In this document: positions 3,157 to 9,117 of the stretch, in pieces
Position numbering within the stretch: position 1 is the first letter of the stretch
Layout of the letters: every line of letters starts with the position of its first letter
Origin: a bacterium
GTDB taxonomy: Bacteria; JAMCPX01
Direction: 5' to 3'
NCBI GenBank assembly: GCA_021789095.1
Contig: JAJYJX010000104.1
Coordinates: forward strand, 1 to 9,117
DNA: 9,117 bases
Translations under genes and position numbers: made by a program
Notes under the pieces: generated by a model
Database searches by the model: none
The model's input: the letters and a program-made list of their open reading frames with translations, nothing else
Told to the model about the DNA's origin: nothing

Positions 3157-3186
3157 CCCGTTTAGAGAACGAAATCCTCTAACGGG
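3157..3186 (-). terminator. Hairpin overlapping the cutA stop codon, possible operon 3' end
   Basis: CCCGTTTAGAG (3157-3167) and CTCTAACGGG (3177-3186) pair over ten bases with one bulged T and a 9-base loop. The right arm contains the cutA TAG stop (3181-3179). On the - strand no U-run follows, so it is not a textbook intrinsic terminator; it may stabilise the mRNA end. On the + strand it is followed by GTTTTA, a weak tract, so it could alternatively limit antisense reading into cutA. Confidence 0.35.
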
Positions 3187-3523
3187 GTTTTACAGCTTTA
3201 TAAATCCACTGCAAATAATCATCACTGCCGTATACAATATCTATTGATATAAATTCAGGCAATTCATAGGGGCTGAGCGCCTTGAGCTTCTTTTCAAGCA
3301 TGGCCAGCGCGCGTCTGTGGGTCTTTATGATTAAAAGGAATTCTTTTGTCCTGACCTTTTTCCCGTTCCACTTATAGAGGGATGTCAGACCCGGCACTAT
3401 GTTCACGCATGCCGCGAGTCCTTCATCTATGATTGCTCCAGCCATGGTTTCAGCGTCGGCTCTCTTTTCGGCAGTGGTGTATGCAATTATGTATCCGGAA
3501 TGCTTATCCTTCTTCGACCGCAT
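3179..3523 (-). CDS. cutA: CutA1-like divalent-ion tolerance protein
   Basis: CutA proteins are small, very stable trimers with a ferredoxin-like fold. Loss of the E. coli gene was linked to copper tolerance, but the general function remains uncertain. The 114 residues are normal for the family. The core signature LAACVNIVPGLTSLYKW lies at 36-52, LLIIKT at 63-68, the conserved SPYELPEFISIDI at 84-96, and YLQWI near the C-terminus at 103-107. The ATG at 3523 overlaps the end of the SRPBCC gene by 20 bases and has GGAAGAG seven bases upstream (3537-3531), so translation is probably coupled. It is the last gene of the six-gene operon. No signal peptide is visible, implying a cytoplasmic protein. 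The family call is firm, the physiological role is not. Confidence 0.93.
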   Translation of the reverse strand: MRSKKDKHSGYIIAYTTAEKRADAETMAGAIIDEGLAACVNIVPGLTSLYKWNGKKVRTKEFLLIIKTHRRALAMLEKKLKALSPYELPEFISIDIVYGSDDYLQWIYKAVKPR

Positions 3524-3944
3524 CTTTGAACTCTTCCATGGATTTTTTCATGGAAACATTGTTCAGTACATTCATGATGGTTTCAGGCAGCCAGAACCCC
3601 GGGTCAACGTATGCCGTAAATGTTGCGAGCGTCTTGTCTTTATCCATCTTTTCAAACGTATAGCTGCCCTTTACGTCTTTGACATCACCTTCGATATAGC
3701 CCCACTCAAGCATGTGTTTTTTATCATCATACTTATAATCAAGAACATACCTGATTTCCTTGCTGAGCACGGAAATCTTGAATTCCACATGCTTGGGCTT
3801 TCCGTTCTTGTCCTTTTTCAGAACCTTTGCCGATTTTACCGCTGATTGCCACTCAGGATAGCTCTCAAAATGGCATATCTTTTTATAACACTTGTCAACT
3901 GTGCCATTTATTTCTATGGTCCTTGTAAGTTCTTTTCCGGACAT
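3504..3944 (-). CDS. SRPBCC-superfamily protein (polyketide cyclase / COQ10-type START fold)
   Basis: The 146-residue protein has the expected layout of the helix-grip fold. It opens with a strand (LTRTIEING), then a helix pair ending in FESYPEWQSAV (27-37). A run of strands follows, including VEFKISVLSKEIRYVL and MLEWGYIEGDVKDVKGSYTFE. A long C-terminal helix (roughly 121-146) begins after a GFWLPE turn. Family members form a deep hydrophobic pocket that binds lipids, polyketides or isoprenoid quinones; some are cyclases or chaperones, and catalytic activity cannot be inferred here. No signal peptide or membrane span is seen, so it is probably cytoplasmic. Its strong ribosome binding site overlaps the stop codon of the oxidoreductase-like gene, and it overlaps cutA by 20 bases. 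A shared hydrophobic ligand with the upstream gene product is an inference from this pairing. The exact subfamily is uncertain. Confidence 0.8.
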   Translation of the reverse strand: MSGKELTRTIEINGTVDKCYKKICHFESYPEWQSAVKSAKVLKKDKNGKPKHVEFKISVLSKEIRYVLDYKYDDKKHMLEWGYIEGDVKDVKGSYTFEKMDKDKTLATFTAYVDPGFWLPETIMNVLNNVSMKKSMEEFKDAVEEG

Positions 3945-3949
3945 AAGAA

Positions 3950-3957
3950 CCTCCTTT
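3950..3957 (-). promoter_or_regulatory. Ribosome binding site of the SRPBCC gene, overlapping the upstream stop
   Basis: AAAGGAGG reads on the - strand from 3957 to 3950, five bases before the ATG at 3944. It overlaps the TAA stop (3958-3956) of the preceding gene, an arrangement expected for re-initiation or coupled translation. Confidence 0.85.
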
Positions 3958-5278
3958 AAAGGGTTGATATAAGACGTTTTGCCAGTTTTTTTATATATGC
4001 ATATTTTTCGTCCGAGGTATACATATTTATGAACTCATCGTTGAGCAGCATGATGCCTTTCCTGTATACCGGTGCGTCCGTGTTGTTCCACAGGATCGAC
4101 GGTTCGGTGTAGTATATATGTTCCACGTACTCGTCAAAAAACGGCATAAACCATTTTACGCGCTCGATAACAGACTGCCTTATTGAAGAGATCTTTGATA
4201 TGCTGTTTTCCTTTATGGGCATGGTGATGGTCAATGCGGCCATTTCGTCCTTGGCCCTTTTTATATCGCTTACCGGGTTTGAATCTATAAAAATGATGTT
4301 ATCGTTTGCAAGGGGCCGGTTGTAATCGGAGACCATGACCGCATTATTAACGCGGTCATAGATTTCCGGCAGGCAGGAACGGTGCAGCCCCACAAATATA
4401 TTATCGACATAAAACTGTTTTTTGATAATTTTACTATAATCGAATGGCAGCAGTGAAAGGGTCTTTTCATAGAGGGGTTCCGAAACAATGCTCCTGGATC
4501 GGACGGACTGCTCATGATCAAAGGTTATGGTGAAATATTTTTCGTAATCTATGGAGTTAACCTCTTTGTCCTGTACGATGTTCACATTGCGCTGCTGCAG
4601 CTCCTTTATAAGTGCTGTTTTAATGCTGTCCATGCCGCCGGCAGGGTAAAACCTTTTCCCTATGACCAACGGGGCAATGCATGTCCCCTGAAAGGCTCTG
4701 TTATCATCGACCCACGGCAACAGGTACCTGACAATCGCATTTATAAAAACGCGCGACCTGTCGTGTTCTGCGATCCTCCTGAAGCTCTCATTGGCAGACT
4801 GTTTTTCCTTCAACAGCAATTGTTTGAGCCTCAGTCTTCTTAAGACCGACCCGGCTATTTTTATACCATAACCGACCTGCCGGCTTAAGCCGGGCAGCAG
4901 CTCGCACAGCCTCTTCTCTTTGTCCAGATATTCCGTTAAAACAGAAGCCTCATCACGGTCAAAACGCAGTTCGACCGCAGCCATGAGTTTTTGTATATCG
5001 GAATAAATATCGACCCTCCTGTCGGGCAGAATCAGCTGATACATGGGATTTATGTATGTTTCAAATGTTACAGGAAGCTCTTTGAGTATCTCAGGCAGCT
5101 CATTGTACGCAAACACGTGTTCCGGGTAATAATTGAAGATGTAACCGTCTATGTCCAGTGACGGCTTGTAATTATCTATTACAACGATTGAAACGTCACT
5201 CTTTGAGAGTTCGTAAGCCGCGATCAGACCGTTTATGCCCTCGGTAATAACAGCAACATCGAAAAATCTGCCTGCCAC
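3956..5278 (-). CDS. Degenerate FAD-dependent amine oxidase/phytoene desaturase-like protein
   Basis: The 440 residues show the overall plan of the NAD(P)/FAD-dependent desaturase group. The N-terminal strand-loop-helix VAVITEGINGLIAAYELSK (8-26) is followed by VVID with Asp35, and DGYIFNYYPEHVF (44-56) matches the strand after the flavin loop. FYPAGGMDSIKTALIKEL (210-227) is the conserved 'YPxGGM' helix region. The usual flavin signatures are eroded. GxGxxG reads TEGING, so the first Gly is Thr. The GG-x-R loop after the second strand is absent. The C-terminal 'GD' motif region reads IMLLNDEF (409-416). It may bind FAD weakly, bind another cofactor, or be a non-catalytic homologue. GTG at 5278 is chosen as start because GGGGAG sits five bases upstream and the Rossmann strand begins within ten residues. 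Substrate is unknown. It lies between purN and the SRPBCC gene with 10- and 11-base gaps. Confidence 0.7.
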   Translation of the reverse strand: MAGRFFDVAVITEGINGLIAAYELSKSDVSIVVIDNYKPSLDIDGYIFNYYPEHVFAYNELPEILKELPVTFETYINPMYQLILPDRRVDIYSDIQKLMAAVELRFDRDEASVLTEYLDKEKRLCELLPGLSRQVGYGIKIAGSVLRRLRLKQLLLKEKQSANESFRRIAEHDRSRVFINAIVRYLLPWVDDNRAFQGTCIAPLVIGKRFYPAGGMDSIKTALIKELQQRNVNIVQDKEVNSIDYEKYFTITFDHEQSVRSRSIVSEPLYEKTLSLLPFDYSKIIKKQFYVDNIFVGLHRSCLPEIYDRVNNAVMVSDYNRPLANDNIIFIDSNPVSDIKRAKDEMAALTITMPIKENSISKISSIRQSVIERVKWFMPFFDEYVEHIYYTEPSILWNNTDAPVYRKGIMLLNDEFINMYTSDEKYAYIKKLAKRLISTL

Positions 5279-5283
5279 TGTTG

Positions 5284-5291
5284 CTCCCCTA
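5284..5291 (-). promoter_or_regulatory. Ribosome binding site deciding the GTG start at 5278
   Basis: GGGGAG (5289-5284 on the - strand) lies five bases before GTG at 5278 and runs out of the purN stop codon TAG (5291-5289). No ATG near the predicted first strand has a better site, so GTG is the likely start and its translation is probably coupled to purN. Confidence 0.7.
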
Positions 5292-5945
5292 CAGGTTGTA
5301 CGGGTTTATAGACGGCTGCCGTTGCGAGTATTCGTAACCCTTTACAAACACCCGCCTGCCTTTAAGGATCAGCCTGTTGTCTGCAAAAAGCTGTATGGCT
5401 ATGGGATAGATTATGTGCTCTTTATCATGGATTCTCTGCGCGAGCGTTTCTTCCGTATCGTTGTCTTTTACAGGGACGACGGCCTGGATGATAATCGGCC
5501 CTGTATCGGCACCCTCGTCTATAAAATGGACCGTGCAGCCCGTGAATTTCACGCCGTGTTCAAGGGCTTTCTGTATGACATTTATACCCGGGAACGAGGG
5601 CAGTATTGCCGGATGTATATTCATTATCCGCATCGGGAATGCGCTTATGAAATGTTTTGTCAGCAGCTTCATATACCCCGCAAGCACTACGAGCCCGACA
5701 TTGTACTTACCCAGTATCTCCATTACCCGGTCCTCTGCCTTCTCCCTGCTGGCAAAAGATTTATAGCTGACCGTATGGACAGGTATATTGCCGTGCCTGG
5801 CTCTTTCAATGGCATAGGCATTCTCATTATCGGATATGACGATTTCTACGCTGGCACTGAGCTTTCCTTCCTTTATACGGTCTATTATTGCCTGGAGATT
5901 CGTACCGTTGCCGGATACCAGCACCCCCAGTTTAAGCTTGCCCAT
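5289..5945 (-). CDS. purN: Phosphoribosylglycinamide formyltransferase 1 (GAR transformylase)
   Basis: PurN transfers the formyl group of 10-formyltetrahydrofolate to glycinamide ribonucleotide, the third step of de novo purine synthesis, in the cytoplasm. The 218 residues match the family (E. coli 212). The N-terminal phosphate-binding loop is VSGNGTNLQAI (10-20). VLAGYMKLL (87-95) lines the folate site. NIHPAILPSFPG (109-120) holds the catalytic Asn109 and His111, and VHFIDEGADTGPII (139-152) holds catalytic Asp147, which match Asn106, His108 and Asp144 of E. coli. All key residues are present, so the enzyme should be active. The ATG at 5945 has only a weak site (AGGAAC, 5961-5956) and follows the pseudo-receiver stop by 14 bases. 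Together with metH in the same operon it ties the locus to one-carbon folate metabolism; purM, often adjacent to purN elsewhere, is not in the window. Confidence 0.96.
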   Translation of the reverse strand: MGKLKLGVLVSGNGTNLQAIIDRIKEGKLSASVEIVISDNENAYAIERARHGNIPVHTVSYKSFASREKAEDRVMEILGKYNVGLVVLAGYMKLLTKHFISAFPMRIMNIHPAILPSFPGINVIQKALEHGVKFTGCTVHFIDEGADTGPIIIQAVVPVKDNDTEETLAQRIHDKEHIIYPIAIQLFADNRLILKGRRVFVKGYEYSQRQPSINPYNL

Positions 5946-5959
5946 AAAGTTTTCCGTTC

Positions 5960-6796
5960 CTATTCTTTCGGCAGCAGCGATGCCGCCTGATTGAGCAGGA
6001 GCTTTATTTTCTCAACGTCCGTTCTGCTCTTTTTTAACCTGTTCTGCAATGCACCGTAGGCATCGTTCAGTTCTTTCAGCTGCTTTTTTATGTTCTCGAA
6101 TTCCGCTTTTGCAGACGCATTTTCCTTTGTTATTTTATCGTTGTCTACCTGCAGTCTTTTCACGGTGTCGTTTGCTTCTGTAAGCCATTTATCAATAACG
6201 TTTGTATGTTCCTTGTTCTCCTTGAGCTGTTTCTGGAGCACGGTCTCCCTTTCTCTGGCTGCCTTGAGTTCTGACTGTATGTTCCCGGTGCCGTTCAACT
6301 GTTCTTTTAACTTTTCATTTTCCTTCTCGAGCGTATTTATCCTGTCGTCCAGTGTGATCTTTTCCTGTATCATTGAATTAAGGTGTTCCTGCATCAGTTC
6401 GAACTCTTTTTCGGATATATGGAAACCTATAAGGTTCTGGACTTTTGATAGTATGACTTCTTCGCTGAACGGCTTTAACATGTACTCGTCAGCCCTTATC
6501 TTCAGTTTCCTGTGCTGTTCGAAATCTTTTGGCTTTGCATCCTTTGAAATAATGATAATGGGCACCTTCTTTAAGCTGCCTTCCTCCCTGTACCTTTTGC
6601 AGAGCAGGTAGCCGTTTGAATCGGGCAGCTCCACGGATATGATGATGAGGTCCGGCCTGTCTTTCCTGGCAAGCTGGAACCCGCTTTCGCTGTCAAGCGA
6701 CATGTTTATCCTGTAGTTCGCCGGCTCAAGCGCATTTGTTATGAGTGCCTGGTATTCCACATCGTTATCCACAAGTAAAATCTTTTTTGACGGCAT
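5960..6796 (-). CDS. Pseudo-receiver (REC-like) protein with long coiled coil, FrzS/AglZ-like
   Basis: Residues 4-125 form a receiver fold: KILLVDND, a strand at 49-55, VPIIIISKD at 78-86 and EYMLKPF at 104-110. The phosphorylation site is not intact. Where the phosphoacceptor Asp is expected (PDLIIISVELPD, 48-59) there is Ser54, and the second acidic pocket residue is Asn11. The Ser/Thr switch (Ser84) and conserved Lys108 remain. Residues about 129-275 are a charged heptad-like coiled coil with no DNA-binding or enzymatic output domain. From memory, the layout and stretches such as NGYLLCKR and QHRKLKIRADEY resemble the Myxococcus motility proteins FrzS and AglZ, whose pseudo-receivers act by protein contacts rather than phosphorylation. 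This protein is much shorter. A structural or localisation role is inferred. Its ATG overlaps the metH stop by one base (TGATG), implying coupled translation. Confidence 0.85.
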   Translation of the reverse strand: MPSKKILLVDNDVEYQALITNALEPANYRINMSLDSESGFQLARKDRPDLIIISVELPDSNGYLLCKRYREEGSLKKVPIIIISKDAKPKDFEQHRKLKIRADEYMLKPFSEEVILSKVQNLIGFHISEKEFELMQEHLNSMIQEKITLDDRINTLEKENEKLKEQLNGTGNIQSELKAARERETVLQKQLKENKEHTNVIDKWLTEANDTVKRLQVDNDKITKENASAKAEFENIKKQLKELNDAYGALQNRLKKSRTDVEKIKLLLNQAASLLPKE

Positions 6797-9117
6797 CAGT
6801 GTATCCCGAAAAATATTTTAATACGTTCAACCGCCGACATCGCGTCCCTTGCATAAATGTCAGCCCCTATTTCTTTTGAGTATTCTTCTGTCAGTGCAGC
6901 TCCGCCTACAGCGATCGGTATATTCAGCCCGTTCTGCCTGACACTCCTCGTCACGTTGGCCATCTCTGACATGGTAGTTGTCATGAGTGCGCTCAGACCT
7001 ATCAAATCCACCTTGTTCTCCCTTGCCTGTTTTATAATCTCTTTTGTCGGAACATTTTTACCGAGATCAATAACATCAAAACCGTTATTTTCAAGTAATG
7101 TTACAACAATATTCTTGCCTATGTCATGGATGTCTCCCTCGACCGTTGCCATGAGGATTTTTTTATGCCCCTTTTGCTGCTGTTTTTTCATGTCCTGTTT
7201 TAACCGTGCAAACGCCTTTTTCATGGTCTCCGCAGAGAGCATGACCTGGGGAAGGAACAATTTGCCTGATTTAAAAAGCCTGCCGACAACATCCATACCG
7301 GGTACGAGCCCGTTGTTGCTTATCTTCAGCGGATCATGTCCCTGGGCAAGCGCATCTTCCACCATGCCTACGATGGTATCCTCGCTGCCCTTTATTACTG
7401 CGTCCTGTATTTTCCCGAATATGTCCATGGTTTCCGTTTTTACACCCGAGGAGGGTGCGGGGCCTGCATCTGAAAATGCCGACAGGAAGCCTCTGGCATT
7501 TTCGTCCCTGCCCAGCAGCAGGGACGCGGAAAGGAATGCTCCCTTTATATGTTCGTCAAGCACATTTACTATTGCACAGCCGAGCCCGTTTGACATCGCC
7601 ATTGCGAGAAAATGTGAATTCAAGATGTCCCTTGCAGGGAGGCCGAACGAGACATTGCTGAGTCCTATGATGGACGGCATCCCGAGACCGTCAGAGATCG
7701 CCCTTATGGCTTTTAGCGTTTCAATGCCGCCTGAAGGTTCTGCACTGATTGTCAGCGTCAGCGCATCAACTACAAAATTGTTTTCTTTTATCCCCATGTC
7801 CCGTGCCGTTTGTATTATCTTTTTCGCAATTGCTATCCTGCCGGATGCCTTTTTAGGGAGCCCGTCCTCATCGACAGGCAGGATCACCGCAGCTGCACCG
7901 TATTTCTTTATAAGCTTCAGCGTGGGGACAAGCCTTTTGTTCTCACCGGTCACGGAATTGACAAGCGGTTTCCCGTCAACCGCCTTCAGGCCGGCTTCTA
8001 CCGCGCTTAAATTGGATGAATCTATCGAAACGGGCAGTGTTGAGACGGAGTTTACTGCAAATATGGCTTTCGTCATCATGGCCGGTTCGTCTATGCCCGG
8101 CACGCCTACATTAACGTCGAGTATATGGGCGCCTGCCTCCTGTTGCAGCCTTGCCTGTTCGCGGATGTACCCGGTTTTACCCGTTTTAAGCTCTCCAGAA
8201 TATGCCTTTTTGCCCGTGGGATTGATCCTTTCCCCGATAAGGAGCGTGTTATTCATTGAAACAAGCTCTGCAAACCCTGTTCTGCTTGCCAGCCGTATGG
8301 CCGCGTCCTGTTTTACTTCATACGAAAGGCTGTGTTTCAGTTTAAGGCCTGTTTCGGCAATATGCCTTATGTGCTCAGGTGTTGTCCCGCAGCATCCGCC
8401 GTACACCCTCACCCCAAGAGCGATTGACTCCTCCATGTGCTCCGTCATCTGTTGGGGTGTTGCAGGGAAGGTTGTGATACCGTGCTTCAGTACAGGCATG
8501 CCTGCATTTGCCTCTGATATAAGCGGCAGGGACGTTACCTTTGACATCCTTTTTATGATGCTGTAGATGCCTTTTGGCCCCAGGCTGCAGTTTGCGCCTA
8601 TGACATCTGCACCCATTGCCTCAAGCACGATAGCGGCGACCTCCGGCGTGGTACCGAGGGTTGTCCTGAAATCTTCATTGAATGTCATCATTGCCATGAC
8701 AGGGAGGTCTGTTACCTCCCTGATGGCGATCATAACTGCCTTTATCTCTTTTATATCCATCATGGTCTCTATGGAGAACAGGTCGACTCCTGATTCAAGC
8801 AGCGCCTGTACCTGCTCCCTGTAGATATCAACCGCTTCATCAAACTCGAGGTTCCCGACAGGCTTCAGGAATTTTCCTGTCGGGCCTATATCTCCAGCTA
8901 CAAAAGCTTTATCAAGTGCGGCCTTTCTTGCATTGCCGGCAGCAGCACGGTTTATATCCCCGACCTTCTTTTCAAGCCCGAAATCCTTGAGCTTTATCCT
9001 GTTCGCACCGAACGTGTTGGTTTCCACGATATTTGCGCCTGCACCGATGTACTGCCTGTGGATGTCGACCAGCAGGTCTGGCTGCTGCAGGTTCAGCAGT
9101 TCCGGGGCCATGCCGGG
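6796..9117 (-). CDS. metH: Cobalamin-dependent methionine synthase, short form (5' end outside window)
   Basis: MetH moves the methyl group of 5-methyltetrahydrofolate through cobalamin to homocysteine, giving methionine and tetrahydrofolate in the cytoplasm. The frame is open to the right edge. The ATG at 9111 falls inside the conserved PGMAPELLNL stretch, so a few dozen N-terminal residues are missing. Numbering from that Met, the homocysteine domain has ETNTFG (30-35) and zinc ligands Cys175 (GANCSLGP), Cys240 and Cys241 (GGCCG). The pterin domain starts near GERINPTGKKAYSG (293-306) and includes DVNVG (332-336). The cobalamin cap is around 570-640, and the B12 domain has EGDIHDIGK (658-666) with lower ligand His662, then LSALMT and GGAAL. 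It stops at residue 771 right after this domain, lacking the AdoMet reactivation domain of E. coli MetH, like the short Thermotoga-type enzyme. It is the first operon gene visible here. Confidence 0.95.
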   Translation of the reverse strand, partial: PGMAPELLNLQQPDLLVDIHRQYIGAGANIVETNTFGANRIKLKDFGLEKKVGDINRAAAGNARKAALDKAFVAGDIGPTGKFLKPVGNLEFDEAVDIYREQVQALLESGVDLFSIETMMDIKEIKAVMIAIREVTDLPVMAMMTFNEDFRTTLGTTPEVAAIVLEAMGADVIGANCSLGPKGIYSIIKRMSKVTSLPLISEANAGMPVLKHGITTFPATPQQMTEHMEESIALGVRVYGGCCGTTPEHIRHIAETGLKLKHSLSYEVKQDAAIRLASRTGFAELVSMNNTLLIGERINPTGKKAYSGELKTGKTGYIREQARLQQEAGAHILDVNVGVPGIDEPAMMTKAIFAVNSVSTLPVSIDSSNLSAVEAGLKAVDGKPLVNSVTGENKRLVPTLKLIKKYGAAAVILPVDEDGLPKKASGRIAIAKKIIQTARDMGIKENNFVVDALTLTISAEPSGGIETLKAIRAISDGLGMPSIIGLSNVSFGLPARDILNSHFLAMAMSNGLGCAIVNVLDEHIKGAFLSASLLLGRDENARGFLSAFSDAGPAPSSGVKTETMDIFGKIQDAVIKGSEDTIVGMVEDALAQGHDPLKISNNGLVPGMDVVGRLFKSGKLFLPQVMLSAETMKKAFARLKQDMKKQQQKGHKKILMATVEGDIHDIGKNIVVTLLENNGFDVIDLGKNVPTKEIIKQARENKVDLIGLSALMTTTMSEMANVTRSVRQNGLNIPIAVGGAALTEEYSKEIGADIYARDAMSAVERIKIFFGIH

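Follow-up and report, generated by a model that had tools for sequence, protein, structure and literature searches.

To our knowledge, FrzS of Myxococcus xanthus is one of the few pseudo-receivers that have been studied. AglZ, a protein of the gliding machinery, combines a pseudo-receiver with a very long coiled coil. In FrzS, Ala53 and Ser10 take the place of the corresponding acids of CheY, and the protein binds neither Mg2+ nor Mg-BeF3 (PMC1974792). His92 and Tyr102 are essential in Myxococcus, as their mutation abolishes motility; Asp55, the nearest aspartate, is dispensable, and its mutation leaves motility in place (PMC1974792). Recruitment of SgmX by the FrzS head, which depends on MglA-GTP, activates type IV pili (PMC11580455, PMC12632262), and β4-α4 belongs to the SgmX-binding surface (PMC12632262). 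How pseudo-receivers act without phosphorylation is largely unexplained (PMC12632262).

Here we describe psRec, a short relative of FrzS encoded in a window of 9,117 nucleotides (the whole stretch of DNA that was analysed). The window comes from a small uncultured phylum, hereafter the family, with nine genomes in our collection, seven of which possess psRec. The gene and the parts of its product lie as follows.

5960..6796, minus strand: psRec gene, encoding a FrzS-type pseudo-receiver with a coiled coil, 278 aa (open reading frame, Pfam, phmmer, homologues)
6422..6796, minus strand: pseudo-receiver domain, residues 1-125 (AlphaFold model with pLDDT 88; top Foldseek match FrzS 2i6f)
6764..6766, minus strand: codon of Asn11, acidic-pocket position, Ser10 in FrzS and Asp13 in CheY (alignments; PMC1974792)
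6635..6637, minus strand: codon of Ser54, phosphoacceptor position, Ala53 in FrzS and Asp57 in CheY (alignments; Ala53 of FrzS from PMC1974792)
6512..6514, minus strand: codon of His95, aligned with FrzS His92 (alignment rows; essentiality from PMC1974792)
6482..6484, minus strand: codon of Tyr105, aligned with FrzS Tyr102 (alignment with 2gkg and the Y102A mutant chain 2nt3)
5978..6412, minus strand: coiled coil, residues 129-273, directly after the receiver (model helices 129-168 and 172-273; 3.5-residue periodicity)
6173..6208, minus strand: conserved coiled-coil patch, residues 197-208 (HT.V.DKWLTEA), a candidate partner site (identity between family genomes)

The plus strand of 5960-6796 is rich in stop codons. 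Response_reg (PF00072), the receiver family of Pfam, matches residues 6-119 of psRec (E = 1.5e-17; 64.2 bits, cut-off 30.2), and no further Pfam domain, output domains included, scores above its curated cut-off, in agreement with the sequence-only reading, which had described a coiled coil of about 145 residues (129-273) and no output domain. Sub-cut-off matches to XRCC4_CC and CUX1_N, two eukaryotic coiled-coil families, were taken as composition effects. Full-length homologues, 65-73% identical to psRec, are present in six other genomes of the family. No relatives of psRec itself were found among viral contigs, and a plasmid search retrieved ordinary response regulators only. Between close relatives dN/dS is 0.03-0.04 for the receiver and higher, 0.12-0.20, for the distal coiled coil; the receiver of psRec is under purifying selection, with strong constraint.

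The key positions of the head are D10, N11, D12, S54, S84, H95, Y105 and K108. A receiver-only AlphaFold model, the input of which included 32 ordinary receivers from viral contigs, is confident (pLDDT 88, pTM 0.85); it places Ser54 at the end of strand β3 (residues 50-54), the usual place of the phosphoacceptor Asp, Ser84 at the end of β4 (80-84) and Lys108 after β5. By its whole-domain profile match and its (βα)5 fold (model, Foldseek) psRec is a receiver domain, and with Ser54 where phosphorylatable receivers have an Asp at the end of β3, it does not belong to the latter. The initial assignment of Ser54 to the phosphoacceptor position and of Asn11 to the acidic pocket, with Ser84 and Lys108 kept, is borne out by the sequence, the alignments and the receiver model. 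CheY/PhoB-type receivers (PF00072) share with psRec the (βα)5 fold, Ser/Thr84, Lys108 and the switch Tyr105, but possess Asp at position 54 and two acidic pocket residues.

Among proteins of known structure, the best sequence match of psRec is FrzS (2gkg; phmmer 1e-25), the next non-FrzS chain following at 1.1e-15. The top Foldseek match of the head is likewise FrzS (2i6f; 40% identity, rmsd 1.3 Å); by VIA-align Z many receivers are level (22.5 to 20.3; FrzS 20.8), but FrzS shows the highest identities. The two proteins share the QHRKLK..ADEY..KP motif with equivalent His and Tyr residues, a head identity of 40%, a C-terminal coiled coil and the lack of a DNA-binding output. His95 and Tyr105 are invariant across the psRec proteins of the family; the Tyr105 position is conserved in every alignment row, and the FrzS-type His is found in 46 of 47 receiver rows lacking Asp at position 54 as against 6 of 26 rows with Asp. 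The combination of a non-Asp phosphosite with an altered second acidic residue, as in FrzS, is present in psRec (Ser54, Asn11), the latter position being Asn in six psRec genomes and Asp in one (G006), and so is the C-terminal coiled coil (129-273), albeit shorter than that of FrzS. When psRec is compared with the FrzS head of genome G035, 12 of 22 residues are identical over β4-α4, and elsewhere identity ranges from about a third to under half. The FrzS head of G035 differs little from the PDB sequence, which points to a Myxococcus-like genome; in the phylum of G035, matches at E <= 1e-26 occur in 131 of 195 genomes.

Sequence, structure, tree and signature residues support the identification of psRec as a FrzS-type pseudo-receiver with a coiled coil, as the kinship with FrzS noticed at the outset had implied. 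There are differences nonetheless: the Thr/Ser at position 84 is lost in FrzS but kept in psRec, and psRec, at 278 aa, is a compact version of the type, its head being joined directly to a coiled coil of about 145 residues. FrzS-type pseudo-receivers with coiled coils were already known; what is new is the compact, linkerless form, the lineage it occurs in and its conserved coupling to metH. Searching the literature for named FrzS homologues yielded a Myxococcus paper only, and an earlier description elsewhere is possible.

The sequence-only reading had proposed a survey of Ser54 across homologues. Asp proved to be lost in all of them, but Ser54 itself is retained in only two of the seven psRec genomes, the other five having Ala and none Asp. 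The wider receiver set contains 47 rows without Asp at this position (28 Cys, 9 Ala, 9 Ser and 1 Asn) and 26 rows with it. The FrzS-type group, drawn from many lineages, has Asp at position 54 in 0 of 47 receiver rows, so that the restored Asp that would have marked Ser54 as a single random mutation occurs in no member of the group. Since the loss of Asp is common to all homologues found, Ser54 is no chance substitution. A maximum-likelihood tree of 70 receiver heads, based on 124 columns only and with many forks unresolved, has a branch (98/88) that sets all Asp-bearing receivers apart. The psRec proteins of the family form a single clade (100/90), to which the homologue from G022, a genome of another phylum, is sister (99/87); the fork uniting the family with the myxobacterial heads is weaker (93/65). 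With few columns, and with rows picked by their similarity to the psRec query, the tree is compatible with a single loss of Asp rather than proof of it.

This conservation leads us to reject both a phosphate-controlled switch and gene decay. The former would require psRec to be controlled through another residue, either by phosphorylation of Ser54 or through a nearby acid comparable to Asp55 of FrzS. The retention of Lys108, Ser84 and Tyr105 would suit such control, but position 54 is occupied by Ala in five of seven close relatives and by Cys, Ser, Ala or Asn elsewhere, while FrzS, the nearest studied relative, lacks Mg2+ and Mg-BeF3 binding and does without Asp55 (PMC1974792); we regard this explanation as very improbable. 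That psRec is a decaying gene, or an ordinary receiver with a chance substitution, is scarcely credible given its full-length frame in seven genomes, the receiver dN/dS of 0.03-0.04 and the loss of Asp in all homologues.

Tandem-receiver coiled-coil proteins encoded in f108 genomes (L088, L089 and L093) resemble psRec in their FrzS-type His and in being extended at the C-terminus, yet they keep the phosphoacceptor Asp54 and cluster with canonical receivers in the tree. Judging from these residues, their receivers could possibly represent a phosphorylatable intermediate type.

The FrzS-type proteins of Myxococcota (L106-L135) share with psRec a non-Asp receiver (mostly with Cys, or with Ser/Ala), the same His/Tyr/Lys signature and, in nearly all cases, a coiled coil; they are mostly longer, however, and their strongest coiled-coil window lies far downstream. 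In psRec, residues 129-273 are predicted to be helical in the full-length AlphaFold model, a run on six close sequences in which only the coiled coil was modelled (pLDDT 57). The same residues display a 3.5-residue hydrophobic period with a power of 119, compared to a shuffle mean of 10.5, a value reached by none of 2000 shuffles; they are 38% charged and contain no Pro. No clear C-terminal tail was seen past the coiled coil. Between family genomes, residues 189-210 (window 6167-6232, minus strand) are 77-86% identical, as against 29-39% for residues 161-188. The contrast between a conserved head and a coiled coil that diverges except in the 189-210 patch suggests a lineage-specific partner.

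The genes surrounding psRec are all on the same strand.

6796..9117, minus strand: metH, short form, truncated 5' where the contig ends; its stop overlaps the psRec start by 1 nt, TGATG (Pfam homocysteine, pterin and B12 domains)
5289..5945, minus strand: purN, 14 nt downstream of psRec (TIGR00639, 250.7 bits)
3956..5278, minus strand: distant FAD/NAD(P)-dependent protein of 440 aa, next after purN (sub-threshold DAO/CrtI matches; conserved order)
3504..3944, minus strand: SRPBCC (polyketide cyclase-like) protein (PF03364, 6.5e-10; conserved order)
3179..3523, minus strand: cutA, last gene of the conserved run (PF03091, 1.1e-30; conserved order)

The first description of this locus had put psRec between metH and purN, away from any Frz genes. 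Frz genes are indeed absent within the window and the position of psRec is right, but its two neighbours are not equal. The metH gene directly precedes psRec in all seven psRec genomes of the family, and also in G022, whereas purN adjoins psRec in four of the five family genomes that could be assessed (G000, G001, G005 and G007). It is absent from the place after psRec in G006, and lies outside the data in G002 and G003, whose contigs end ~200-250 bases past psRec. The complete run of metH, psRec, purN, the FAD protein, the SRPBCC protein and cutA is common to four genomes; the gene for the 440-aa FAD/NAD(P)-like protein comes after purN in each of four genomes. The stop codon of metH and the start codon of psRec overlap by 1 nt (TGATG) in six genomes and by 4 nt in G006. 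The two family genomes without psRec are also without metH.

Outside the family the linkage was found in G022 only, where metH precedes the psRec homologue with a 9-nt gap. None of 23 loci with other FrzS-type heads, mostly from Myxococcota, has metH within the flanks covered, mostly ~5 kb on each side, including all those checked among L106-L135; the linkage to metH is therefore a property of a single clade. With G022 as the sister of the family in the head tree, this linkage may represent one inherited arrangement and not repeated selection. The phyla of G022 and of G051 (see below) are represented by one and two genomes, respectively, in the collection, so that searches within these phyla are uninformative. 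A literature search for metH together with a response regulator and a coiled coil yielded nothing relevant, and the conserved metH linkage of psRec is reported here for the first time.

Nothing in the biology of FrzS corresponds to a constant linkage to metH, which might mean that psRec has a different job. Such a job could be found with MetH itself or with one-carbon metabolism, psRec, through translational coupling, assisting in the docking or assembly of either the short MetH or the metH-purN enzymes. The adjacency in 7/7 genomes with overlaps of 1 or 4 nt, its recurrence in G022 and the joint absence of both genes from two family genomes would all accord with this idea. MetH, moreover, has no Pfam match to the C-terminal activation domain (its N-terminus being cut by the contig edge), and a MetH of this kind may need helper proteins. 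On the other hand, the 23 FrzS-type loci without metH in their flanks indicate that MetH is no general partner of the type, the sister position of G022 allows the linkage to be a single inheritance, and no sequence features pointing to MetH binding were found in psRec. We therefore consider a metabolic role unlikely. More doubtful still is its most specific form, in which psRec would be a dedicated methionine synthase partner that docks, places or helps to reactivate MetH, a signalling fold turned metabolic scaffold. If the coupling to metH is functional, it would represent a new use of the fold; if it is not, it calls for caution in inferring function from operons.

The genomes of the family offer another candidate setting. 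An MglA-type GTPase is encoded in all nine of them, adjoined in eight by an MglB-type Roadblock gene, and PilT-family ATPases scoring above cut-off are likewise present in 9/9. The assembly from which the window comes, 92% complete and in 203 contigs, shows one MglA-type gene only, which is of the second type and located at a contig end, and no MglBA pair was found in this incomplete assembly. G051 encodes a long coiled coil with a FrzS-type head three genes away from an MglA-type GTPase. Taken together with the FrzS-SgmX biology of Myxococcus, the presence of MglA and PilT and the proximity in G051 make a role in polarity or pilus function the leading reading, on grounds of co-occurrence and not of a test. 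We give a probability of about 0.5 to psRec being a dimeric adaptor that works like FrzS in cell polarity or on pili, independently of phosphorylation, and whose gene is carried on the transcript of metH.

As such an adaptor, psRec would dimerize through its coiled coil and present two receiver heads. Being unphosphorylatable, the heads may act as fixed docking surfaces, using the α3-β4-α4 / α4-β5-α5 side around His95 and Tyr105, and, in the manner of FrzS, would bring a partner protein to a place in the cell that the coiled coil determines. The setting would most likely be the polarity system of the MglA GTPase and type IV pili, operating without Frz-type phosphorylation input, and the conserved patch at 189-210 may provide a second partner site within the coiled coil. 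Stop-start coupling would allow psRec to be translated from the metH message, in which case its level could follow the steady expression of a housekeeping gene and not a signal. Against a FrzS-like role stands the architecture of psRec, in which a short coiled coil comes directly after the receiver, the myxobacterial proteins being mostly longer.

No pilus or MglA genes lie near psRec, either within the window or in the family neighbourhoods. This would also suit a general scaffold, that is, the same FrzS-type protein with a partner that is neither MglA nor the pili, acting for example in placement of the cell envelope or division machinery, with metH contributing a shared promoter only. The lineage-specific partner suggested by the conserved head and the divergent coiled coil outside 189-210 fits such a scaffold too. 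It is at odds, though, with the occurrence of MglA-type and PilT-family genes in every family genome and with the psRec relative near an MglA-type gene in G051, and we hold it to be possible but less probable than the polarity or pilus adaptor. The existence of short relatives outside Myxococcota, with fixed signature residues and a constant metH linkage, shows that the FrzS type predates social motility and is more widespread.

L064-L070 and L072 contain a second MglA-type gene, whose product is extended at the C-terminus; in L064 and L072 the gene before it encodes a protein of 391-399 aa, which in L064 has no Pfam match. The MglA-type GTPase of G051 (L057, 2024-3064, minus strand), encoded near the FrzS-type coiled-coil gene, carries a long acidic C-terminal extension.
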